This document shows positions 2 to 16,164 of a stretch of 20,550 bases of DNA, piece by piece (positions within the stretch are counted from its first letter, which is position 1; each line of letters starts with the position of its first letter). The notes below the pieces were generated by a model. It was not told the origin of the DNA, ran no database searches, and was given only the letters and a program-made list of their open reading frames with translations. Source of the stretch: a virus. The stretch covers positions 1-20,550 of IMG/VR virus record IMGVR_UViG_3300032304_001528. One strand, 5' to 3'. The position numbers were made by a program, and so were the translations under genes.

Positions 2-3000
2 TTTTCAAACGTTCAAGTGTCTCCAATTGGGTTGGTTTCTTCAGTTAATATTACGGAAAATGTTGTGTTTTTAAATCCTGGACCTACACTAACCGCTACT
101 CAAACTTTAACACCTACCCCAACTGTAACTAGTTCTGAAGGATACATACCGCCAACACCAACAGAAACACAAACCCCAACTCCAACTGTAACAGTAACTA
201 AAACTACAACCCCAACTGTAACTAGTACACAAACTACAACACCTACGATAACTAATACTAAAACGACAACCCTAACACCAACTAGTACCCAAACTCAAAC
301 TACAACCATCACTGAGTCTAAAACTCCAACCCAAACGTCTACCCCAACAATAACAAGTTCGGAAGGGTCTATAGCCCCTACACCGACCACAACCCCAACA
401 AATACTATTACACCAACCAACACAATTACTCCTACAAATACTATTACACCAACCAACACAATTACTCCTACAAATACTATTACACCAACCAACACAATTA
501 CTACTACAAATACTATTACACCAACCAACACAATTACTCCTACAAATACGCTAACCAATAGTATCACCCCAACAAATACTATTACGCCAACCAATACCGT
601 AACGCCTACCAATACCGTAACGCCTACAAAAACTATTACACCTACAAATACACCATCATCCGTAACACCTACACCAACACCTACAAAAACTGTAACACCT
701 ACTGTATCACCTGAAGTGGTCCCAACATTAGTTTATGATTTGGACGCAGCCAATTACTCATCAGTACCAACAAATGGTTCGACAATTAGTGGTTATACCT
801 TAACAGTTGCAAATGCTGGTAATAGTATTAGTTGGCAATCTGATTATGGTGGTTTATTTAGAAAATCTAACAGTGTTGGTACTGATTATATCGCAGGTGG
901 ACCAAATTATGTGACAAGTCAAAGTTATAGTGTTTTTATGGTTTATAAGTTATCCGCAACCTCGTTGGGTAGATTATTAAATACTCAAAGCGAGGCGACA
1001 AAAGATTGGTTAATGGGGGCTTATAGTAATGGTCTAAGTAAAATGAATGTCTTTTATCCAAACTTCACTATTAATTTAACGGGTGTTCCGGGAGATACTG
1101 CTTGGCATATGGATTGGGTAACATGGGACACAACCACAAACACAGGAAAAATTTATACCGCAACACCAACATCCGCACCACCATCTAATTTATTATATTC
1201 AGGAACAAGCGCGTCAGGTGGAGGATTTAACCAATTGAGGTTATTTAGTAGAGCGGCAGGTTCTGAAGTTCAAACTGCGGATATAGGTTTTATTAAAGTA
1301 TATAATGGAGTATTAAGTTTATCGACCATTCAATCACTACACTCGCAATACGCATCTAGATTTTTAGAACCAACCCCTACCCCAACACCAACTAGAACAA
1401 CAACCCTTACCCCAACAAAAACACCTACTAACACTGTAACGCCAACAAAAACATCGACCCCAACTGCAACACCGACTAAAACTCCGACAAATACCATAAC
1501 ATCATCAATTACACCAACTCCAACCTTATCATCTGTCGTGGCTCAACCGTTTGTTAGTGTTTGGACCGCTAATTCACCAATAGAACTTCCTTATTCACCA
1601 ACTGGAACATATTCAGGTACAATAAACTGGGGTGATGGTAATGTTTCTGCTAATACGTATGAAAATAGAACTCACACCTACGATACATCAGGTGATTATA
1701 CTGTAACAATAAACGGAACAATCGAAGGTTGGGATTTCTTAAATTACGCAACAAGTTATAGAACTAGTATAAAAGAAATAATAAGTTGGGGAACTTTAAG
1801 AGGTGAAAACAACTCAAATGAGTATATGTTCTATGAGTGCTCCAATTTAATATTAACTGGCGTTACAGATACACCTAACTTAGTTGGTATTACTTCAACT
1901 CAAGGTATGTTTAACGGTTGTTCGTCAATAACAACAGTAAACAATATGAATAGTTGGGACGTGTCAAACGTTACAAATATGGGTAGTATGTTTCGAAATA
2001 CAAACTCATTTAATCAAAATATTGGAAATTGGAATGTTTCAGGTGTAACAAATATGATTGATATGTTTAATAACGCAACGTCATTTAACCAAAACATAGG
2101 TAGTTGGAATGTGTCAAGTGTTACGGATATTGCCGCAATGTTTGAATTTGCAACGTCATTCAATCAAAACATCGGTGGTTGGAACGTTTCAGGTATAACA
2201 AATATGACTAATATGTTTTATAACGCAACATCATTTAATCAATCATTAAGTGGTTGGAATGTGTCAAATGTTACTAATATGACTAATATGTTTAATAACG
2301 CAACGTCATTTAACCAAAACATCGGTGGTTGGAATGTGTCAAATGTTACTGATATGAATTCTATGTTTTCACAAGCGACCGCATTTAACCAAAACATCGG
2401 TGGTTGGAATGTGTCAGGTGTAACAAATATGACTAATATGTTTTATGACGCAACTTCATTTAACCAAAACATTGGTGGTTGGAATGTGTCAAGTGTTACT
2501 AATATGAGTGCTATGTTTAGTAACGCGACCGCATTTAATCAAAACATCGGTGGTTGGAATGTGTTAAATGTTACTAATATGAATTCTATGTTTAATAACG
2601 CAACATCATTTAACCAAAACATCGGTGGTTGGGATGTGTCAAATGTTACAGATATGAGTGGTATGTTTTCCTATACACCATTTAGTTACTCTTTAAATTC
2701 TTGGAACGTTGGTAATGTAACAGATATGCCATATATGTTCGAATTTACGACTAATTTCAATCCTTTTAACGGAGTTACTGATTGGGATACTTCAAATGTA
2801 ACAAACATGGAAGGGATGTTTTATAATTCAACATCATTCAACGGAGATATGCAAGATTGGGACACTTCAAATGTAACAAATATGTCATATATGTTTTATA
2901 ACGCAACCGCTTTCTCGGGTGGAGGAAATATATCTTTATGGGATATAAGTAGTGTCGAAACAATGGAAGACATGCTTTCAGACTCGGCATGTCCGGCATC

Positions 3001-3172
3001 TGCATATAGTGATGCTTTAGTTAATTGGAAAATTATCGCAGATAATGTAGGGGTTAATCTTATTACACTTGGTGCTGCAGGCGTTAATTATATAACCTCT
3101 GTCGCTGATACAAGTAGAAGTTATTTAATAAATGATTTGAGTTGGTCAATAACAGACGCAGGAGGTATATAA
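2..3172 (+). CDS. Thr/Pro-rich BspA-like repeat adhesin, N-terminus outside window
   Basis: The frame is open to the left edge (codons F-S-N-V-Q precede the first possible start, GTG at 17), so this is probably the C-terminal part of a longer protein. Counting from GTG 17, the order is: Thr/Pro-rich linkers (about 25-235) including a TPTNTI tandem; a LamG/concanavalin-like beta domain (about 236-450); a second Thr/Pro linker (about 451-505); a PKD-like domain containing NWGDGN and [14 protein letters not shown] (about 510-570); then 14 BspA/DUF285-type repeats of about 25 residues (W-[ND]-V-S-x-V-T-x-M-x-x-MF, then FNQNIGG); and an end cap finishing SWSITDAGG. These modules are common in Bacteroidetes surface proteins. 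In a phage genome a virion fibre or adhesin role is the likeliest reading, but that is inference. The ATG of the next gene overlaps the stop as TAATG. No signal peptide can be judged because the N-terminus is missing. Confidence 0.8.
392..655 (+). repeat. TPTNTI tandem repeat with 36-bp DNA units
   Basis: This in-frame array encodes degenerate 6-residue TPTNTI units. Near-identical 36-bp double units begin at 425, 461 and 497 (the last has one C-to-A change, giving TTTNTI), with divergent units before and after. It is an extended, probably O-glycosylatable or simply flexible Thr/Pro linker between domains. The near-perfect DNA identity suggests recent expansion or slippage. Confidence 0.85.
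1955..3013 (+). repeat. 14 BspA/DUF285-type 75-bp repeats
   Basis: Repeat units start with a Trp codon at 1955, 2030, 2105, 2180, 2255, 2330, 2405, 2480, 2555, 2630, 2702, 2783, 2858 and 2939. The first ten are exactly 75 bp (25 codons) apart; the later ones vary (72, 81, 75, 81). The unit reads W-[ND]-V-S-x-V-T-[ND]-M-x-x-MF followed by [12 protein letters not shown]. The middle units are almost identical in protein but use different synonymous codons, so the array has both old and recently homogenised copies. Such repeats form extended solenoid-like surfaces in bacterial adhesins. Confidence 0.9.
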
Positions 3173-6499: not shown

Positions 6500-6655
6500 A
6501 TGGGAAGACCAAAGAAACCGACAGAAGAAAAAAAAATAAAAGTTAGTATCAGTTTAGATAGACAACTTTATTATAAAATTAAATCGGATAATTTGAAAAC
6601 TTCCCGTATTATAGAAAAATTAGTGGAAGAATATTATGGAAACAAAGATTTGTAG
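6500..6655 (+). CDS. Small ribbon-helix-helix-like DNA-binding protein
   Basis: A 51-residue protein starting MGRPKKPTEEKKIKVSISL. The layout is that of an Arc/CopG ribbon-helix-helix protein: a basic arm, one strand (KVSISLD), a helix (RQLYYKIKSD), a turn (NLKTSR) and a second helix (IIEKLVEEYY). Proteins of this type dimerise and bind operators, usually as repressors. The start is the only ATG and sits directly after the promoter octamer; there is no Shine-Dalgarno. Its last 20 bases overlap the start of the HNH gene in another frame, so both are probably translated from one message, and it might control that message. A second RHH-like gene lies at 16175-16339. Assignment is by pattern only. 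Confidence 0.75.
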   Translation: MGRPKKPTEEKKIKVSISLDRQLYYKIKSDNLKTSRIIEKLVEEYYGNKDL

Positions 6656-7235
6656 TAAGTGTAAAGAACTAAAAACAATTGACGAATTTGGAAAAGACAA
6701 ATCCAGGAAAGAAGGGTATAGTTATCTTTGTAAGATATGTCTTATAAATAAAAGTAAATTATACAAGAAAAACAATCAAGAAAAAGTTTTATCTTCTTAT
6801 TCTCGTTATAGGGAAAATAACAAAGAAAAAATCAAACTTTCACGAAACGAGTATAAACTTAAAAATAAAAGTAAAATTACTGAATATAGAACGTATTATT
6901 CTAATAAAAGAAGAAAAGAATCAAACATTGTAAAACTTTCGGAAAACATAAGAAGAAGGATTAATGTTTTTTTATCGTCAAATAAAATTACAAAAAAAAA
7001 TAAAACATTTGATGTTGTTGGTTGTACTCCTGAATTTCTTAAAGAATATTTGGAGAAAAAATTTTTAGAAGGTATGACTTGGGATAATTACGGTTTTTAT
7101 GGTTGGCACATCGACCATATAATACCATTATGTACGGCAAAAACAGAAGAAGAGGTTTTGAAATTATGTCATTACACTAATTTACAACCATTGTGGTCCC
7201 AAGATAATTTCAAAAAAGGAGGGAGAATAGTTTAA
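6636..7235 (+). CDS. HNH homing endonuclease with N-terminal zinc ribbon
   Basis: A 199-residue free-standing phage HNH endonuclease. The N-terminus has a zinc-ribbon-like C6-x2-C9 ... C32-x2-C35. A highly basic, Lys/Asn-rich central stretch (about 36-125) is probably a DNA-contacting linker. The HNH core is at the C-terminus: WHIDHIIPL with H158 and H161, then YTNLQPLW with N182, then DNFKKG with N191. Such enzymes nick or cut a related genome lacking the gene, so that the gene is copied across during mixed infection. It lies just after the polymerase gene, a frequent place for homing genes in T4-like phages. It overlaps the RHH-like gene by 20 bases at its start and its stop overlaps the convergent gene's stop by four bases. 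Confidence 0.93.
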   Translation: METKICSKCKELKTIDEFGKDKSRKEGYSYLCKICLINKSKLYKKNNQEKVLSSYSRYRENNKEKIKLSRNEYKLKNKSKITEYRTYYSNKRRKESNIVKLSENIRRRINVFLSSNKITKKNKTFDVVGCTPEFLKEYLEKKFLEGMTWDNYGFYGWHIDHIIPLCTAKTEEEVLKLCHYTNLQPLWSQDNFKKGGRIV

Positions 7236-7568: not shown

Positions 7569-8693
7569 TTATATTACGTATATTTGTCTTGGAAATGCTC
7601 TAAACTTCATTTGTTTGTTTAGATTTTCTGCGATTAACGCCTCTCTCTCCATTACCTTTTCAGGTTTCAACCTTGTCAATCTACCTTCAGCACCAATTAA
7701 TTCCTCAATTAATTTTGTTTTTTCGTCTTTCGCTTCGGTTGCTAAAGATGTATAATCTAAAGTTAATTCGGAGTCAGGTGTTTTAAGATTACCACTATAT
7801 TTTCCTCTAACTCTTGATAAGGTTTCTTTAACGTAAGCAACAAACCATCTACGTATCCATTGTTTAGCAGGGTTGTTCAAGTCAACCCAATTTAACTCAT
7901 CAAACGGAACATCAGAAGGTAATTTGATAATATCGGGATTATCTTTTAAACAAGAGTCTCTATCTGCACCTTCAGTGTCATAGTACCAATACCAAACTTG
8001 TCCTTGCATCATCTGTGCGTTACCGAAGTCAAACTTACCACCTGGTGTTTGCATTAAGTGAATTGCCTTCTTTCCATCAGGAAGAGCGGTTACACGATAA
8101 GTTAAATCTCCCGCAATAATTCTTCTTTGTATGTTTACCTCTTGCATTCTAAGTAACATATCAAAAGCCGGCATCATAAAATATGAACCACCGGTATTAC
8201 CCATTTGAGCAAAACCACCTGCACCACCCAATCCACCTGAACCGATACCCCCAAAAGACCAAGGGTCAAAAAATACATTATTTAATGTTGCCGGAGTAAA
8301 CCAAAGTAACTCATTTATTTCTCTCCCTGCGGGAATTTCATAAATTTGTTGTCCCTTTTTTAATTGGATAAAATCTTTTTTTAGTACCCAATCACCATTA
8401 CTTTGTAAACCAACAATTTTTGAGTAGGCGTAAGAATACCTGTTTTCCCAATCCAAACTTTTAGTAAGGAATGCTCTTGATAAAGATTGTGTATCTAAAT
8501 TAAGGTTGTATAAAGAAGTCCACTGAGATTCAATTAACCAATCTTGTACGTACTGTGCATAGTCTTGAATGGAAAACTCCAATAAAGTATCCATTTGTTC
8601 ATCTACAATTTCAATAGAACGAAGTGGTGCACCTAACAAGTGTTTTACTTGGGTGTATAGTTTACTTCTATCGGGTTCGGGTATGACAGCCAT
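7569..8693 (-). CDS. Probable neck/head-tail connector protein (gp13-like)
   Basis: A 374-residue protein. I chose the ATG at 8693 (MAVIPEPDRSKLYTQVKHLLG) rather than a TTG at 8723, because the longer start would translate through the ATATTTAT octamer. The N-terminus has the pattern LGAP-x5-V-DEQ-x8-SIQDYAQY, which I associate with virion neck proteins of T4-like phages annotated gp13-like. Next come a beta segment (QIYEIPAGREINELLWF), a Gly-rich loop (about 147-169) and a helical C-terminus (WIRRWFVAYVKETLSRVRGKY) that continues into a charged helix. In T4, gp13 and gp14 close the filled head and join it to the tail. The identification is from remembered family pattern and context, not from a search. 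Confidence 0.6.
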   Translation of the reverse strand: MAVIPEPDRSKLYTQVKHLLGAPLRSIEIVDEQMDTLLEFSIQDYAQYVQDWLIESQWTSLYNLNLDTQSLSRAFLTKSLDWENRYSYAYSKIVGLQSNGDWVLKKDFIQLKKGQQIYEIPAGREINELLWFTPATLNNVFFDPWSFGGIGSGGLGGAGGFAQMGNTGGSYFMMPAFDMLLRMQEVNIQRRIIAGDLTYRVTALPDGKKAIHLMQTPGGKFDFGNAQMMQGQVWYWYYDTEGADRDSCLKDNPDIIKLPSDVPFDELNWVDLNNPAKQWIRRWFVAYVKETLSRVRGKYSGNLKTPDSELTLDYTSLATEAKDEKTKLIEELIGAEGRLTRLKPEKVMEREALIAENLNKQMKFRAFPRQIYVI

Positions 8694-8708
8694 AGTAATA
8701 TTTTTTAT

Positions 8709-8716
8709 ATAAATAT
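8709..8716 (-). promoter_or_regulatory. Candidate phage promoter octamer (neck-like gene)
   Basis: ATATTTAT on the minus strand, directly after the stop codon of the 381-residue gene and 15 bases before ATG 8693. Its placement supports the shorter start for the neck-like gene. Confidence 0.5.
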
Positions 8717-9862
8717 CTAACAAACTATCTTTTCAACCTCTTTTTTTGGGACATATAATTGTTTTTTCTCTAAAATATCAGAATTTTTATTAAAAATGTA
8801 TGCGTCGATTGTTTTATTTTGATATTCCTTTTTTATACGGAATCTAATAGATAATCTTAATTCACCACATCCTCTTTGACCAACATTTGACCAATAAAAA
8901 TCAATATAGTTAATTGGAACAATTGTATAATTTTCATAAACAATACCCTCCATATTATTTTTAATACTATCAAGATATTCTTGACCTTCACCTTCTACCC
9001 ACTCATATAGACCACGAATTACTGAGTTATAAATTTCTAAATACGGACCCTTATACTCTTTATTTTTTGTTTGTTTAAAAATTGAAAAAAATTCTGACAA
9101 ATAACTGTCAATATTAACGTCCATCTTTTTGACCTCAAAGTTAGAACCAGATGGGAATACCTCAGTTTTTACTCCATTATCCATAACGTAAAGAGGGGTT
9201 TTAGACACTATGTCTGATTTTATAGCAACCTTATCGCTTAAAGATGACTTAACACAATTTTTTATCTTTAGTAATAATTTTTGAAAATCGTCAGTAGAAA
9301 CACTTTTGAATCTTTGTATTTTTTCCAAAAAATTATTATCAAGGTCTTCACCGCATTTATATTGTAAAGAAAGTGCGGTTCTTTTTAGGTCAAAATAATC
9401 ACCCTCGAATTCTTTCTCATATTTTGAATATTCTTTTTCTCTAGCATTTTTTAATATATCTTCTAAATCATCAGGAACTTCAGTCATATTTCTTAATTTT
9501 AGTAATTGTTTTTTGGTAACATCATCCTTAAATTCTTCATCATTGATAAAATCAGCAATCACCTTCAAGTCATTGATGGTTTTGTTTCTATCTATCAATG
9601 ATAGTTCCAATATTTTTGGTAAAAGACCTGAATTTTTTCTATTAAAAAATTTATAGAGAGTTTCAATACTTCTGTTCAAATCAGTTATTAATTTTTGGTC
9701 AGTTAGTGATGACCTCAAAGCCAAAAGTTTAATCGATGAGTTGTTTTTTTTACGAGTTTCTTTATATAAAGTATTTAAATAATCGTCGTCAAACATTTCA
9801 TCTTGGTCTAAATATTTCTCTGTTAATCTAATTAATTGACTTTCAGATATTAAAATTTTCAT
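8717..9862 (-). CDS. Unknown 381-residue protein with ISESQL N-terminal peptide
   Basis: No family recognised. The protein begins MKILISESQLIRLTEKYL and is then largely charged and helical (Lys, Glu, Asp and Asn rich) to about residue 210. The C-terminal third looks beta-rich (TIVPINYIDFYWSN, CGELRLSIRFRI) and has a GQRGCGEL segment. The first 15 residues resemble a peptide in the 36-residue protein at 19687 and contain two sites, ISE/S and LTE/K, that fit the [LI]-x-E cleavage rule of T4-type prohead proteases; a packaged internal protein is therefore possible. The ATG overlaps the stop of the SOD-fusion gene as ATGA, so the two are probably translated together. Confidence 0.85.
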   Translation of the reverse strand: MKILISESQLIRLTEKYLDQDEMFDDDYLNTLYKETRKKNNSSIKLLALRSSLTDQKLITDLNRSIETLYKFFNRKNSGLLPKILELSLIDRNKTINDLKVIADFINDEEFKDDVTKKQLLKLRNMTEVPDDLEDILKNAREKEYSKYEKEFEGDYFDLKRTALSLQYKCGEDLDNNFLEKIQRFKSVSTDDFQKLLLKIKNCVKSSLSDKVAIKSDIVSKTPLYVMDNGVKTEVFPSGSNFEVKKMDVNIDSYLSEFFSIFKQTKNKEYKGPYLEIYNSVIRGLYEWVEGEGQEYLDSIKNNMEGIVYENYTIVPINYIDFYWSNVGQRGCGELRLSIRFRIKKEYQNKTIDAYIFNKNSDILEKKQLYVPKKEVEKIVC

Positions 9863-11397
9863 TTTATATGTTCTATTAATGATGTTGATGGTATAGTGTA
9901 ATTTCCTTCCACAATCTTAGTATTGTTATTATCAAATACTAATACTCCAGAATTTTTATTGAAAAAAACAATCCAATCGGTACGATACTCTTTTACGTTG
10001 GCGGTATCGTATAGTGTATAAATATTATCATTCAAATCATAACGACCAAAAGGTTTGATTTGTGCTGTTTTGATTTTTCCATCAACAATAATCTCAGCAT
10101 CAATACCTTCTTTAGCATCTTTTGAACTACCTAGTTTACCAATCAATGAAACGTTTTCTTCACCATATCTTTCTTTTAATTTTGCAACCGTAAATTCTTC
10201 GGTCTTCTTACCAATTTTACTTGTACTGGTTAGAGTTGCCATTAGTTTCTTATAAGTGTTTAATTCATCTGAAAAAATTGTTGATTTGAATTTATCAATT
10301 AAATTAACCATTCTATAAACCTCGGAAATTTGTTCTGATGGATTTTTACCAATAAAAGTTAGAGGTCTTTCATTGTTTGTTTTTAACAATATATTAATGT
10401 CATTAACTAATATACAAAATCCTACGATGTTTGTATTCAAATAATTTATTACTGACCTTCCCTCACCCTCTAAGTCATAAATTCCAAACATTTCTCCCTC
10501 ACCATACTCGTTATTTTTTTTATATTTTTTAGCAAAAACTTGTCTTAGTGCTTTATTTATTCCTCTTTTATATAATTCTTTAACATTTTTATTATTATTA
10601 AAAATAAATTTGTATGCAATATATTGGTTCAATGAACAACCTTCAATATTATTGTTAGATATTGTTTTTTTAGTTGTTACCGATTCATTTAATTTATTTT
10701 TTAATTTCATGTTATACATCTTACCAACGAACTTCCAATTGATTGCTTTGAAGAAGTTTTTGATGTAATCGTCCCTCTTGTTCTTATATCTCAAGTAGTA
10801 AGCGTGTTCCCACAAATCAAGACCCAAAAGTGGATATCCCCCATTTCTTACTATGTTCATAAGTGGATTATCTTGGTTTGGTGTAGTCATAATCTTTAAA
10901 CTACCTGATTTGGTTAACACCAACCATATCCATCCTGAACCGAAATTTCTTTTTGCCTTTTCGGTAAATTCTTGTTTGAACCCCAAAAAGTTATGGAAAT
11001 CCTTTTTTATTCTATCGTAAATTTGACCACTACATTTTTGTTCTGTTGGTGATAACATTTTCCAAAATAAGGCGTGGTTAAAAGCGCCACCAGCATTATT
11101 TCTAATCGTTTTGTTATACTTACCGATAGATTTAATTATTTCCTCTAATTCAACATCACCGTAATCTTTTTTACTTAATGCGTCATTTAATTTGTCTACG
11201 TAAGTTTTGTAATGTCCGTTGTAGTGATAAGACATTGTCTCTGGGTCGATAAATTGTTTTAAAGCGGAATAGGAGTATGGTAGTTTCTCAATTCCTATTT
11301 TTTTCATTTCATTTATAAACAATTTTTCATTTTCCTTCGTGTCTATCTCTTTTATTTGATTGGCTATTTGTTCTACTTTCTCTTGAAGTTTTTTCAT
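9859..11397 (-). CDS. Mn-type superoxide dismutase fused to nuclease-like region
   Basis: A 512-residue fusion. Residues about 38-225 match Fe/Mn superoxide dismutase, which converts superoxide to oxygen and hydrogen peroxide. Landmarks: LPYSYSALKQFIDPETMSYH, RNNAGGAFNHALFW, FGSGWIWLVL, and GLDLWEHAYY. All four metal ligands are present: H58, H108, D194, H198. The GG before NH108 and Q175 in PNQDNPL (the equivalent of E. coli MnSOD Gln146) favour the manganese type. A Lys-rich N-terminal helix of about 35 residues precedes the domain. Residues about 240-512 are not SOD: a helical middle, then E399/E400, D433 in GIDAEI, and Q446-I-K448 in AQIKPF, a layout like PD-(D/E)xK nucleases with a QxK variant. 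There is no signal peptide, so it acts in the cytoplasm or inside the virion. The SOD call is firm; the nuclease call is tentative. Confidence 0.93.
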   Translation of the reverse strand: MKKLQEKVEQIANQIKEIDTKENEKLFINEMKKIGIEKLPYSYSALKQFIDPETMSYHYNGHYKTYVDKLNDALSKKDYGDVELEEIIKSIGKYNKTIRNNAGGAFNHALFWKMLSPTEQKCSGQIYDRIKKDFHNFLGFKQEFTEKAKRNFGSGWIWLVLTKSGSLKIMTTPNQDNPLMNIVRNGGYPLLGLDLWEHAYYLRYKNKRDDYIKNFFKAINWKFVGKMYNMKLKNKLNESVTTKKTISNNNIEGCSLNQYIAYKFIFNNNKNVKELYKRGINKALRQVFAKKYKKNNEYGEGEMFGIYDLEGEGRSVINYLNTNIVGFCILVNDINILLKTNNERPLTFIGKNPSEQISEVYRMVNLIDKFKSTIFSDELNTYKKLMATLTSTSKIGKKTEEFTVAKLKERYGEENVSLIGKLGSSKDAKEGIDAEIIVDGKIKTAQIKPFGRYDLNDNIYTLYDTANVKEYRTDWIVFFNKNSGVLVFDNNNTKIVEGNYTIPSTSLIEHIK

Positions 11398-11420: not shown

Positions 11421-11428
11421 ATAAATAT
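11421..11428 (-). promoter_or_regulatory. Candidate phage promoter octamer (SOD fusion)
   Basis: ATATTTAT on the minus strand within the 45-bp gap between the helicase stop and the SOD-fusion start, 23 bases before ATG 11397. Confidence 0.5.
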
Positions 11429-11442
11429 CCTTTGAATTTGAA

Positions 11443-13197
11443 TTATTCATGACCATTGATTGAATTGAGTATTAACTCAGCGATACTACCCCTATCCAAG
11501 TTGTCCCCCATTACGGTTTCAAATATCCCTTTTTTCCTAATTAAGATGTCATATATCGCACCTTCTATAGTATTTTCAAATAGGGGATAATAAACTAAAA
11601 CACTATTTTTTTGACCATAACGGTACGCTCTATCCTCGGCTTGTGAATGGTCTGATGGAACAAAAGATAGGTCATTAAATATTACAACCTCCGCAGATGT
11701 TAAAGTAATACCAACCCCTGCCGCCTTTATGTTTCCACAAAACACTTTAACCTTATCGTTATCTTGAAAATCATCCACAGCCTTTTGTCTTGCGGGTTTT
11801 GTAGATGAACCATCCAAGTATACGGACATCTTACCGAAGTGTTCGTGAATTCTCTTTAATGGTTCAGTGAAGTTTGAAAATATAATAACTTTCTTACCTT
11901 GTTCTAAAATGTTTTCAGCAAGTTCTATTGTTTGAGAAACTTTTTCTTCGGCAATAACTTGTCTTACTTTCATCAGTTTTGAAAACTGAACCGTAAGAGA
12001 TGATGATTCCTCTTTATTATTTCTAAACCAATCAAAATACTCACCCATAAGATTTTCATATTCTTTTGATTTTAACCTCAGATAAACGGGATTAATAATC
12101 TTTTCAGGTAAATCTAACACATCAGTTTTTAATCTACGTAGTATTTGTTTTGAAGTTCTTTCACGTAGTTCATCCAAATTAGAAGCACCATTTACGTTCC
12201 ATACTTTTCTTTGACCTGCTCTAAACTGATAACCCTCACAAAAACGAATGACATAAGCCATCCAGTTTTGAGCAACAGGAGATTCAACCAAAGATAACAA
12301 GTTGTAGTAATCAATTGGACGAGATGTAATTGGGGTTCCTGTTAATAACCACAATCTATTAATATTCTTAACAAAGTGATTTATTAGTTTTGTTCTTTGT
12401 GCTTGTGAATTTTTAATGTAATGTGCTTCATCAATAATAACTAAATCAAACTTAGAATTAATAATTTGTGAGGTTTCTTTATCTTTAATGTCGTGAAAGT
12501 TTTTGATAATATCGTAATTAACTATAACAAAATCGTGGTCTGATGAGAAATTCTTACCCTCACATATATAAATTGACTTATCCGTATAGTTCTCAATTTC
12601 CCTTGACCAATTTATTTTAAGTGATGCGGGACAAATAATTAATACCTTTTTTGCCCCTGACTCTAAAGCTGCGATAATAGTCGAGGTGGTCTTACCCAAA
12701 CCCATATCATCCGCCAAAATAAATCTCTTACTACCCGCTAATTTCTCAATTGCTTCTTTTTGATGTGAAAGTGGAGGTCTATGACCATACTTTGAATAAT
12801 CAATATCAACTTTTTCTACCGTATGAGTTTTAATCAATGCTCCTTTAGGAACCCAAAAGTCACTTAAATGTTCAGATTCAAAAAACTTTCCCCAAATATG
12901 ATAAGATTTTTCTTTTTCTACCAATAGTTTTTCTACATAGATTTTATCAGGAACCTCACGAAACAATTTTTCGTCCGCAAACTTTCTTGCAAAATAGGGG
13001 TCTAAATCAACCCACTTTTTAGCGACCTTTGGTTTTTCATTATGGTATGTAATTATATAATCAGATTGTGTTCTTGTTGGAAAAAACTTTTTATTTACCA
13101 ATTGTTGTTGTTTTAATCTCAATATGAAATTATTACCCCCATCATATGTGGATAAAATTTCTAACGCCTTTTGTTCAATTGATAGTAGGTTTTCCAA
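11443..13197 (-). CDS. SNF2-family helicase/ATPase
   Basis: A DNA-dependent ATPase of the SNF2 superfamily 2 group, 584 residues from the proposed start. Motifs: Q-like segment PLSHQKEAI, Walker A DDMGLGKT (about 163-170), DEAH (256-259), TGTP (286-289), a second RecA lobe with VIIFSNFTEPL, then CGNIKAAGVGITLTSA and QAEDRAYRYGQ (about 519-529). The QAEDRAYRYGQ form is that of SMARCAL1-like annealing helicases, so a job in fork remodelling or recombination, similar in purpose to T4 UvsW, is likely. There is no ATG before motif I; the frame stays open to 13389 but that would overlap the divergent structural gene. I place the start at TTG 13197, 33 bases after a near-match promoter octamer. The exact start is uncertain. 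Confidence 0.93.
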   Translation of the reverse strand: MENLLSIEQKALEILSTYDGGNNFILRLKQQQLVNKKFFPTRTQSDYIITYHNEKPKVAKKWVDLDPYFARKFADEKLFREVPDKIYVEKLLVEKEKSYHIWGKFFESEHLSDFWVPKGALIKTHTVEKVDIDYSKYGHRPPLSHQKEAIEKLAGSKRFILADDMGLGKTTSTIIAALESGAKKVLIICPASLKINWSREIENYTDKSIYICEGKNFSSDHDFVIVNYDIIKNFHDIKDKETSQIINSKFDLVIIDEAHYIKNSQAQRTKLINHFVKNINRLWLLTGTPITSRPIDYYNLLSLVESPVAQNWMAYVIRFCEGYQFRAGQRKVWNVNGASNLDELRERTSKQILRRLKTDVLDLPEKIINPVYLRLKSKEYENLMGEYFDWFRNNKEESSSLTVQFSKLMKVRQVIAEEKVSQTIELAENILEQGKKVIIFSNFTEPLKRIHEHFGKMSVYLDGSSTKPARQKAVDDFQDNDKVKVFCGNIKAAGVGITLTSAEVVIFNDLSFVPSDHSQAEDRAYRYGQKNSVLVYYPLFENTIEGAIYDILIRKKGIFETVMGDNLDRGSIAELILNSINGHE

Positions 13198-13230
13198 AAA
13201 AATAGTTTTACAACTAAAAATAAGAATTAA

Positions 13231-13238
13231 GTAAATAT
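13231..13238 (-). promoter_or_regulatory. Candidate promoter octamer variant (SNF2 helicase)
   Basis: ATATTTAC on the minus strand, a 7-of-8 match to the octamer. It overlaps the plus-strand copy at 13235-13242 through the palindrome AAATATTT, so one site may serve both divergent genes. Confidence 0.35.
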
Positions 13239-13242
13239 TTAT
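13235..13242 (+). promoter_or_regulatory. Candidate phage promoter octamer (structural pair)
   Basis: ATATTTAT on the plus strand, seven bases before ATG 13250, again close enough to suggest a very short leader. Confidence 0.5.
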
Positions 13243-13249
13243 CAATATT

Positions 13250-13762
13250 ATGGCAAAGAAAGTCCCAATTACAAGGTTAGGTAAATTTTTTGGTGCGGAG
13301 GATTTCGATTTAGAAATACAATTAGGGCAGGAATGGTTAGAAGGTGACATGAATTTTACTTTGGTATTATATCGTGTCAATAGAATCAAAACAAAAAAGG
13401 ACGATGTCTATGGTGAAACCCTAAAAGACGGAATCCAATTTGACCCACCAATTGAGTTCAAAGGATATGTTCAAGTTGCCGCCCCTACAAATAAGGCGTA
13501 TGGTAATTCAAAAATTGAACAAACCGAACCAGGTAATTTAAAAGTGTCTGTGTATTCAAAACATCTACAAGAATTGGGTGTTGACATTGCATTTGGCGAC
13601 TATATCGGATATTATGAATCAGAAACAAGAGTTAGATATTACTCAGTAATAGATGATGGTCGTATTGTTTCAGATAACAAACATACGTATGCTGGATACA
13701 AACCATTTTACAGAACAATAACAGCCGCTCCTGTAACGGATAACGAATTTAGAGGATTATAA
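13250..13762 (+). CDS. Virion structural protein, possibly neck protein
   Basis: A 170-residue protein without signal peptide or membrane segment. Segments such as DFDLEIQLGQEWLEGDMNF, YRVNRIKTKKDDVYGE and FGDYIGYYESETRVRYYSV resemble a conserved small structural protein of marine T4-like phages. Position, just before a tail-completion-like gene and, apart from an inserted minus-strand cassette, before the sheath, matches the T4 order of neck genes (13, 14, 15 ahead of 18). I cannot say which T4 protein it corresponds to; gp14-like is a guess. The start is fixed by ATG 13250 right after the promoter octamer. The next gene begins one base after its stop (TAAAATG spacing), so the two are co-translated. 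Confidence 0.85.
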   Translation: MAKKVPITRLGKFFGAEDFDLEIQLGQEWLEGDMNFTLVLYRVNRIKTKKDDVYGETLKDGIQFDPPIEFKGYVQVAAPTNKAYGNSKIEQTEPGNLKVSVYSKHLQELGVDIAFGDYIGYYESETRVRYYSVIDDGRIVSDNKHTYAGYKPFYRTITAAPVTDNEFRGL

Positions 13763-13763
13763 A

Positions 13764-14804
13764 ATGGGATTTCCAAAAAAAATTAAAAAAAACATACCAC
13801 TTAATTATCCAAAAACTTTATTTCCGAGAAGAGAAGAGTTGGTAGATAAAATTAATCAAGATGGTACATTCTTACCTAAATCGATATTACATGCGGATTT
13901 GGATAGGGGTTTTTTGGATTTTGTGAAAAATGACTTGGGAATAGTTGTTGAGGGTGCGACTGTACCAACAGTAGATATAATAATTACAACACAGAATTGG
14001 GCTCAGTTTACCGAAACATGGAATTTTGTGGATTTAGATTTCAACGTAAAACCACCATTTGTTACAACAGTAAGAACACCTGAAGTTAAGTTTGGAACAA
14101 ATCCTGCTTTATTATATAACATACCAAATAGAAGACAATATTTTTACGCAACAGTACCAACATGGGACGGAAAAAAATTAGGTGCAGATGTCTACAAAAT
14201 ACCACAACCAATACCTGTTGATATTACATACCAAGTAAAGATTGTGTGTAATAGAATGAGGGAGTTAAACAGATTTAATCAAGTAGTTCTCGGAAAATTC
14301 GCATCAAGACAGGCATATACAGTGATTAAAGGACACTACATTCCTATTATATGGAATAACATCAGTGATGAATCTGTAATGGATTTAGACAAAAGAAAGT
14401 ACTACGTCCAAAGTTACGAATTTATAATGTTAGGATTTTTAATTGATGAGGAAGAATTTACCGTTAGTCCTGCAGTAAATAGGTTTATTCAAGTTTTCGA
14501 GACAGATGGAAAAATTATAACTAAAAAAACTAAAGGTAGAAATGAACCAATAGTACAAGAAAAAATTGATATTGATTTTCCTTCAGGTATAACTGAAGTT
14601 GTTAGAACATTCAGTCAGACAACTTCACTTTCATTACTTGATACTTCTAATGTTTTGTCTTTTGATATTTTTATTAATAACGATTTTTTTGGTTCCGATT
14701 TGACGACTATACAAATTAGTACTAATGATGTTGTGAAATTTGTTGTAACCAAAACAAATAATTCATTACAATCTAAAATTAGTTTTGAATCTTTTTTTAA
14801 TTAG
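13764..14804 (+). CDS. Virion structural protein, possible gp15-like tail completion
   Basis: A 346-residue protein with a basic N-terminus (MGFPKKIKKNIPLNYPK), no export signal, and alternating strands in the middle. The region NIPNRRQYFYATVPTWDG followed by PIPVDITYQVKIVCNRMREL and KRKYYVQSYEFIMLGFLID suggests the fold of a tail terminator or sheath-stabiliser; together with its place upstream of the sheath this points to a T4 gp15-like role, tentatively. After about residue 270 there is a separate beta-rich piece (SLSLLDTSNVLSFDIFINN) that looks like an added immunoglobulin-like end. Its last eight bases overlap the end of the convergent secreted-protein gene. Confidence 0.85.
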   Translation: MGFPKKIKKNIPLNYPKTLFPRREELVDKINQDGTFLPKSILHADLDRGFLDFVKNDLGIVVEGATVPTVDIIITTQNWAQFTETWNFVDLDFNVKPPFVTTVRTPEVKFGTNPALLYNIPNRRQYFYATVPTWDGKKLGADVYKIPQPIPVDITYQVKIVCNRMRELNRFNQVVLGKFASRQAYTVIKGHYIPIIWNNISDESVMDLDKRKYYVQSYEFIMLGFLIDEEEFTVSPAVNRFIQVFETDGKIITKKTKGRNEPIVQEKIDIDFPSGITEVVRTFSQTTSLSLLDTSNVLSFDIFINNDFFGSDLTTIQISTNDVVKFVVTKTNNSLQSKISFESFFN

Positions 14805-16164
14805 TAAAGACCGATACTGTGGGGTAAGGCACTACAGTAATTGGAACTTGCACCGAACTAATACACCCGTTAAACGCCACCAAATTTAATTGATACGTAG
14901 TTGTGTTTTGTGGGGTTATTGTTATACTTTGTGTTGTTTGATTTCCCGGTAACCATTGATATGATTGATAGCCTGGTGGGGCATTTAAAGTAATTGTTTG
15001 ACCAACGCATATAGTGTCAGGTAATAGTTGTAATACAGATGGAGAACATTCGGCGTCAATATATGCATAACCATAATGAGCTCCCTGACTACAATCTCCT
15101 GTTGTGAATTCGGCAGTTACCGATTGTCCAATATAGTTTGTCAAATCAACATTTACCGAACTCCATGGCTTATACACAACACCTGTACAAGTAGATGAAT
15201 TAAAAAAACCTGGTAAGTTTCCCGCTGCTGAAACAACGAATTCTGAACAAGGAATTACATTTCCGTTTTGGTCTCTTAATAATGCCCTAAAAAAAGGTTG
15301 TTCATTTGAGTTATGACCAGGGTCTTCAAAAACAACAGCATATCTATATGTAAAACTGTTATTAGATGAGGTAACCATAAATGTTTGAATAAGTTGTTCT
15401 GCCTCTGAATTAACATTATTGTTCCCTAACCTTACAGAACGAGGACCACCAAGTGGGTCGACTCTTGGGAATCCACCACATGGGTCATTTCCACCTGTCA
15501 TAATAGTGTGTCTACCATTTACAATACCAATTGAGTTTGAGTTGTAATTTGGTGTCGGAGACCCATTAGGTGACATGGTAGATAAACCGGTAGTTCCATA
15601 CCAACCGTTAAATGTTCCTGAATTAAAATTTATATTATTACAACCTTGTTGTGAAACTACAGGTGTTAAGTTAATAGTTAAGTCGAATTGGTAACAATTG
15701 GCAAAATAACTTGACCAAGTAAATGCATCAATCAATACATAGTATGTTTGACCTCCTTGAACCTGTCTAACTAACGAACCACCGCCTAAAGTTGGGTCAC
15801 ATAATACAAAACCTAAACAGGCACCAACAGTTCCTGGACACGAAGTTAGCAATGATATACTGGGGTAGGCGAATCCTGTGGAAACAATGTCGTTTAAGGT
15901 TATTGTAATTAACCCATCTTGTGATGGTGTAAAACTATATAACCAATCTTGTCCCCCATAATAATTTCCACTGGTTGGTGTTGCACAAGCGTTTAAACCT
16001 GTATAATCATTTAGGTCTCCACAAGTTGATTGGTTATTAGTGAAAAAAGGTAAATTAACTTGATTAGCGGATGCCCCTAAACAAGTGTTAGAACCCTGAC
16101 CAAAAATATTGTGATTAATTAAAATGATAATAAATAATAATAATATGTGTCTAATCGAATTCAT
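14797..16164 (-). CDS. Secreted Bacteroidetes-type surface protein (moron), C-terminally short
   Basis: A 455-residue exported protein. The N-terminus is a clear Sec signal peptide: MNSIRH, a hydrophobic core ILLLFIIILI, and an end at IFGQ, typical of Bacteroidetes. Domain 1 (about 24-170) resembles a pre-peptidase C-terminal (PPC) beta sandwich: GGQDWLYSFTPSQDGLITI, then GGQTYYVLID. Domain 2 (about 172-375) is Cys-containing and of the kind seen in flavobacterial gliding-motility-associated proteins (GWYGTTGLSTMSP, GGPRSVRLGN, YAYIDAEC). Domain 3 (about 380-445) is an Ig/PKD-like repeat (SYQWLPGNQTTQSITI). It ends at VVPYPTVSVFTN, which is how the next such repeat normally begins, and no type IX secretion sorting domain follows. 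It lies on the opposite strand to its virion-gene neighbours, ten bases after an RHH-like gene, overlapping the convergent gene by eight bases. It may alter the infected host's surface or the virion; the function is unknown. Confidence 0.9.
   Translation of the reverse strand: MNSIRHILLLFIIILINHNIFGQGSNTCLGASANQVNLPFFTNNQSTCGDLNDYTGLNACATPTSGNYYGGQDWLYSFTPSQDGLITITLNDIVSTGFAYPSISLLTSCPGTVGACLGFVLCDPTLGGGSLVRQVQGGQTYYVLIDAFTWSSYFANCYQFDLTINLTPVVSQQGCNNINFNSGTFNGWYGTTGLSTMSPNGSPTPNYNSNSIGIVNGRHTIMTGGNDPCGGFPRVDPLGGPRSVRLGNNNVNSEAEQLIQTFMVTSSNNSFTYRYAVVFEDPGHNSNEQPFFRALLRDQNGNVIPCSEFVVSAAGNLPGFFNSSTCTGVVYKPWSSVNVDLTNYIGQSVTAEFTTGDCSQGAHYGYAYIDAECSPSVLQLLPDTICVGQTITLNAPPGYQSYQWLPGNQTTQSITITPQNTTTYQLNLVAFNGCISSVQVPITVVPYPTVSVFTN

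Follow-up and report, generated by a model that had tools for sequence, protein, structure and literature searches.

A widespread phage gene fusing a predicted Mn-type superoxide dismutase to a nuclease-like domain, with candidate prohead-protease sites at the domain borders

The window analysed here is an entire 20,550-base IMG/VR contig, a fragment without the head gene cluster. Its minus strand carries a 512-residue open reading frame (ORF) with an ATG start (9859-11397), whose product comprises a leader (residues 1-30, 11308-11397), a Fe/Mn superoxide dismutase (SOD) domain (residues 36-229, 10711-11292), a disordered linker (residues 230-252, 10642-10710) and a C-terminal nuclease-like domain, hereafter the C-domain (residues 253-512, 9862-10641). 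An initial annotation had claimed this single-frame fusion without stating its strand; the ORF is confirmed, and the plus strand of 9859-11397 has stops throughout. The window also encodes a contractile sheath homologue, a trait of T4-like myoviruses, and this gene, together with the gp21, gp23 and gp20 homologues of large relatives, bears out the T4-like assignment made earlier.

Scans of viral contigs retrieved at least 596 relatives with the full protein and at least 570 viral contigs with a C-domain profile. The domain pair, which the initial annotation had suggested seeking in other phage genomes, is present as a full-length fusion in 212 of the 233 loci with a match (102 distinct proteins of 508-519 residues), in an uninterrupted frame that runs from one half into the other without stop codon or frameshift. 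The remaining loci are truncated at contig edges, lack the SOD or are split copies. Among 50,697 phage records there was no match spanning the fusion, although UniProt entry A0A6J5L953, which carries an automatic name only, is a relative of it. The genome_contigs collection held no fused copy and just two SOD-only matches, and a cellular origin of the fusion was rejected on that ground. As far as the contigs tell, this is a genuine fusion that occurs widely and in conserved synteny. The only two split loci (L191:3001-4538 and L196:3001-4292) are broken downstream of the SOD, at a point within the C-terminal region, and may be sequencing errors or decayed copies.

Upstream on the same strand lies a gene for a UvsW-like SNF2/superfamily 2 helicase (11443-13389; the true start is probably within this ORF). 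Downstream, p381 (8717-9862, minus strand, function not assigned) overlaps the end of the SOD-nuclease gene and is followed by the gene for a head-tail adaptor (neck) protein (7569-8723, minus strand; phrog_211, E 1.2e-9). Every sufficiently long contig shows the same order, bar occasional inserted ORFs: helicase, SOD-nuclease, (p381), neck and p111 share a strand, and DNA polymerase B lies on the other one. Judged by this synteny, the SOD-nuclease is a core gene between the helicase and neck genes. p381 is found in some relatives only (L002, L003, L014, L036, L055 and L062), and its leader, MKILISESQLIRLTE, has two (L/I)xE motifs resembling those of the SOD-nuclease. Elsewhere in the window, an HNH/endonuclease VII-like ORF (6636-7235, plus strand) changes position between relatives; in L007, for example, it separates the helicase gene from the SOD-nuclease gene, and it has other positions in L004, L022 and L102. 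It looks like a mobile homing-type gene. A proline/threonine repeat protein with BspA-like DUF285 repeats (17-3172, plus strand; E 1e-163) is probably a surface or adhesion protein.

The SOD assignment is supported by Pfam matches that cover residues 36-226, with Sod_Fe_C at E 4e-37 (126.8 bits against a curated cut-off of 20.9) and Sod_Fe_N at E 5.5e-22 (78.5 bits against a cut-off of 27). Residues 36-229 can be aligned to the sequences of solved SODs in the PDB, and the identity to Staphylococcus aureus SodA is about 46%. The initial annotation had recognised a complete MnSOD with four metal ligands and the Mn-type glutamine, and these residues (H58, H108, D194, H198 and Q175) proved invariant in all 103 SOD-bearing sequences, as are H62, Y66, E197 and Y201. 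This complete catalytic set marks the domain as a Fe/Mn SOD that is predicted to be active. The dN/dS ratio is 0.02-0.09 for the SOD versus 0.08-0.36 for the C-domain, and is lower for the SOD in 8 of 8 pairs, several dS values being near saturation; wherever it is kept, the SOD is thus under stronger purifying selection than the C-domain. A full-length structure model rendered the SOD half poorly (rmsd about 5.8 against real SODs) and was used for disorder only.

The C-domain consists of a helical region, with the motif GRSxxNxxNTNxxxFC, and a PD-(D/E)xK-like core. An AlphaFold2 model built from 44 diverse members (pLDDT 87.8, pTM 0.79) places the candidate catalytic residues on the first core helix and the following strands: E400, the presumed active-site glutamate of that helix (10198-10200), D433 of G431-x-D433, a presumed metal ligand (10099-10101), and Q446-I-K448, a presumed (D/E)xK-type motif (10054-10062). 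E400, G431, D433, Q446 and K448 are invariant in 106 of 106 sequences, in agreement with the motif residues named by the initial annotation, and D427 (10117-10119) is invariant too. The earlier pairing of E399 with E400 holds for E400 alone, residue 399 being threonine here and arginine in most relatives. All six positions are unchanged across 14 sequences that include a 290-residue stand-alone homologue, 21-27% identical, from a 735-kb phage. In a Foldseek search of the PDB the top match was I-Ssp6803I (E 0.003, probability 1.00, with low TM-scores), followed by Sulfolobus Hjc, NhoI and further archaeal Hjc entries, all of which are PD-(D/E)xK enzymes. The PD-(D/E)xK assignment proposed at the outset thus gains from the conserved residues and the top fold matches, with the qualification that the E-values are modest and that the second core helix is not evident in the model; as a prediction from alignment and model it has good but not final support.

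In profile searches, residues 230-512 gave no convincing Pfam or PHROG family, nor did the 44 C-domain members; scattered weak matches to DUF6602 and MC4 were not trusted. The C-domain profile had no match among PDB sequences, and defence-system annotation gave no PADLOC match. Pattern scans with the single C-terminal sequence or the megaphage homologue alone retrieved nothing, while alignments used as queries gave matches. The stand-alone homologue of the 735-kb uncultured phage (L082:5743-6615) lies near a PhoH-like gene. Another distant homologue that stands alone was found at L269, and the C-domain fold also occurs inside a much longer chain, the 1113-residue viral protein A0A8D9CCA0.

The two segments that flank the SOD are marked by a short recurrent motif, (L/I)xE. 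The leader ends in I28-N29-E30 (11308-11316), and a motif at this position is present in 102 of 103 SOD-bearing sequences. The linker, where pLDDT is below 50 over model residues 1-21 (residues 230-250), carries L236-N237-E238 (10684-10692); here (L/I)xE is found in 97 of 106 sequences, and E238 is invariant within an otherwise variable stretch. A further site at 246-248 is present in 103 of 106 sequences; the window's own protein has the sites at 28-30 and 236-238, and ISN at 246-248. Most linker sites are followed by Ser or Gly. The motif reaches a density of 7.3 per 100 residues in the leader and 8.2 in the linker versus 0.9 and 1.1 in the two domains, and the predicted cut points agree with the borders of the SOD (36-229) and with the start of the ordered C-domain (about 251). 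The distant stand-alone homologues at L082 and L269 have no such leader. In T4, L/I-X-E is the cleavage motif of the gp21 protease, which cuts after it (PMC9026906) and strips the leaders off internal head proteins and gp23 (PMC9026906, PMC5694885). Cleavage behind E30 and E238 would set free a SOD whose length is normal for this enzyme. It should be noted that the motif is short and that leader and linker are hydrophilic, so that a chance origin is possible.

Large relatives encode the machinery that such processing would involve. Of six large related contigs that were tested, five had Peptidase_S77 (gp21; E about 1e-24); Gp23 was detected in 5 of 6 and the T4 portal (gp20) in 4 of 4. Of the eight (L/I)xE motifs in the gp23 homologue, the major capsid protein, five fall within residues 1-60; the last of these is INE|A, at which the propeptide appears to end. 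An acidic scaffold-like ORF beside this gene has 13 such motifs and another ORF of the head cluster has 12. Across a relative's genome, N-terminal (L/I)xE motifs number 185 against 115 expected (maximum of 200 shuffles, 150), and the composition-corrected value is 1.58 at N-termini versus 1.19 elsewhere; this proteome-wide signal is real but moderate, and we use it as support only. The 322-kb relative G009 (L251-L267) contains dozens of ORFs with short leaders, such as MKIIITE(S/N), MKKIIRLKESDL...LINE and MNLQEN...LITE, and the first 30 residues of its ORFs show an excess of (L/I)xE; judging by these leaders, they may form a large set of head-targeted proteins.

Versions consisting of leader and C-domain only occupy the same locus in some relatives, with 294 residues in L102, L125 and L128 and 309 residues in a second lineage (L110-L118). 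In the 309-residue lineage, ...SINEMKKIEIEKL remains of the SOD's beginning and is joined directly to KSIISEGKSERC, which reads as a deletion scar. Contigs of 308 and 318 kb from the SOD-less lineages contained no other SOD, the second showing just a 43-residue scar. In a quick C-domain tree, poorly rooted by its distant outgroup, the SOD-less forms are nested among SOD-bearing relatives and need at least two changes (starred branches). Because of this nesting among close SOD-bearing relatives and the deletion scar, the simplest reading is that the SOD was lost in frame at least twice, with leader and nuclease retained. All SOD-less forms keep the nuclease-like residues, as well as the leader and (L/I)xE sites. 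The SOD therefore does not seem to be needed for the role of the C-domain, and, given the purifying selection on retained copies, it seems optional but useful: from the alignments, the gene has the nuclease-like domain as its core, to which the SOD is an optional addition under strong selection.

Taken together, it is probable, by a slight balance, that the gene encodes a head-targeted precursor made up of a leader, a Mn-type SOD, a linker and a PD-(D/E)xK-type nuclease, which is cut in the prohead. The leader would carry the precursor into the prohead core, where the prohead protease would cleave behind E30 and E238 and, in the majority of relatives, also behind E248. Two separate proteins would result, a SOD close to its native form (about residues 31-238) and a nuclease (about 249-512), both remaining alongside the DNA within the head. 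The SOD could then limit superoxide damage to the packaged DNA, or to phage or cell components just after entry, and the nuclease could work within the head or reach the host by ejection. Repeated (L/I)xE motifs in a disordered, variable linker suggest that the domains are to be separated rather than coupled, and the adjoining neck gene offers supporting context. We hold more tentatively the fuller version, in which the protein is a head polyprotein whose freed SOD and nuclease both accompany the genome inside the virion and may be carried into the host. A role in protecting phage DNA or virion proteins, one of the functions proposed by the initial annotation, is compatible with these findings.

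The adjacent helicase gene and the presence of Hjc-type resolvases among the best fold matches could also point to a role in the infected cell. Here the intact two-domain enzyme would combine defence against reactive oxygen species (ROS) by the SOD with phage DNA metabolism by the nuclease, e.g. branch resolution with the UvsW-like helicase; the fusion would merely fix co-expression or dimerise the nuclease through the SOD dimer, and the (L/I)xE motifs would be due to chance or helix capping. Free SODs occur in other phages, and phage SODs have been proposed to serve in ROS defence (PMC6802176). We regard this reading as rather unlikely, as the motifs coincide almost without exception with the domain borders, the linker varies around an unchanging E238, and the nuclease was kept through at least two losses of the SOD, which shows SOD dimerisation to be dispensable. 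The weak fold scores, the lack of a Pfam or PHROG nuclease match in the 44 members and the adjacent neck gene would fit a C-domain that is a structural or DNA-binding head or neck protein with a degenerate PD-(D/E)xK-like fold, the SOD being its cargo. This is improbable, since invariance of E400, D427, D433 and Q446xK448 down to 21-27% identity goes beyond the needs of a purely structural role.

The initial annotation had also raised the idea that redox or metal sensing is coupled to DNA cutting, or that the SOD fold acts as a scaffold. Both domains are of metal-dependent types and share one chain, so that superoxide or Mn might gate cleavage; the sister lineages from which the SOD was removed in frame nevertheless keep the nuclease-like domain with its residues, and the long disordered linker gives no hint of allostery. 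A scaffold would not be expected to retain a full SOD catalytic set under strong purifying selection. Neither proposal is supported by these data, and we consider a sensing or scaffolding role very improbable. As for an assembly or gene-calling artefact, nothing speaks for it except the split relatives L191 and L196, and it is practically ruled out by the identical frame across 212 loci on many independent contigs with conserved synteny.

The head-targeted precursor has partial counterparts among known systems. The T4 internal head proteins IPI, IPII, IPIII and Alt likewise carry an N-terminal leader with L/I-X-E, a capsid targeting sequence processed by gp21, and the phage group studied here also encodes T4-type head genes including that protease. 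In contrast to them, the present precursor, whose place in the virion is predicted, has two enzyme domains with sites flanking the first, and its leader is about 30 residues long instead of 10-20. Vibrio phage 2.275.O, Pseudomonas phage PA5oct and relatives also encode a Fe/Mn SOD, but as a stand-alone single domain (about 190 residues in 2.275.O) that is 27-29% identical and is without leader, linker sites or C-domain; in freshwater phages SODs have been proposed as a ROS defence (PMC6802176). The chlorovirus PBCV-1 packages a Cu/Zn SOD in its virion, which is thought to lower early superoxide (PMC7019647). It provides a precedent for a particle-borne viral SOD, although packaging is only predicted here and the PBCV-1 enzyme is unfused, belongs to the unrelated Cu/Zn family and comes from an algal virus. 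The C-domain has the predicted core fold and the E ... GxD ... QxK pattern in common with the homing endonuclease I-Ssp6803I, archaeal Hjc resolvases and NhoI, but it is about 9-15% identical to them with low TM-scores, has an extra N-terminal helical region, and its nuclease activity is a prediction. A0A6J5L953, a 501-residue 'superoxide dismutase' of an uncultured Caudovirales phage, matches the C-domain fold with a TM-score of 0.86 and 38% identity and is very probably the same fusion.

The open-access literature searched contained no description of a SOD-nuclease fusion or of a phage virion SOD, which agrees with the earlier remark that no described system of this architecture was known. 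All of the parts belong to known kinds. In the open-access literature searched, the conserved fusion, the repeated loss of its SOD in frame and the prohead-protease motifs flanking the SOD appear to be undescribed. If the proposal is true, no earlier case is known to us of a phage-borne SOD in the virion, nor of a prohead protease that splits a precursor of two enzymes. The gene offers a widespread system for testing antioxidant enzymes in phage heads, as in a chlorovirus, and a test case for the prohead protease as a polyprotein processor, for which the natural SOD-less relatives are ready controls of the SOD's contribution. In addition, conserved (L/I)xE leaders could allow head cargo in uncultured large phages to be predicted from sequence.

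A phage-type promoter-like element, GATATTTAT, lies upstream of the SOD-nuclease gene (11421-11429, minus strand), and its TATTTAT is found within 70 bases upstream of the gene in 80 of 80 relatives. In G009, ATATTTAT is 8.9-fold enriched upstream of ORFs, and similar elements precede the neck, gp21, portal and polymerase genes. The use of ATATTTATA as proof of late expression was rejected, as the element is not confined to head genes and also precedes that for DNA polymerase. Two promoter-like classes can be distinguished in G009, TTTG-N-TATCTTTG (25 ORFs) and ATATTTAT (58 ORFs, counting those of 100 residues or more), which barely overlap (one shared ORF in the stricter count); ahead of the SOD-nuclease gene the phage-type element stands in place of the first class. 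In the 25 ORFs with an upstream TATCTTTG, TTTG often stands about 20 bases ahead of the element, a pattern that fits the Bacteroidota promoter consensus; a Bacteroidota host is therefore likely. A further ORF of the window (14797-16164, minus strand), which also occurs in L008 and L036, has a signal-like N-terminus and a weak match to Ig_7 (CHU_C-associated), and by these features it looks to have been acquired from a Bacteroidota host.
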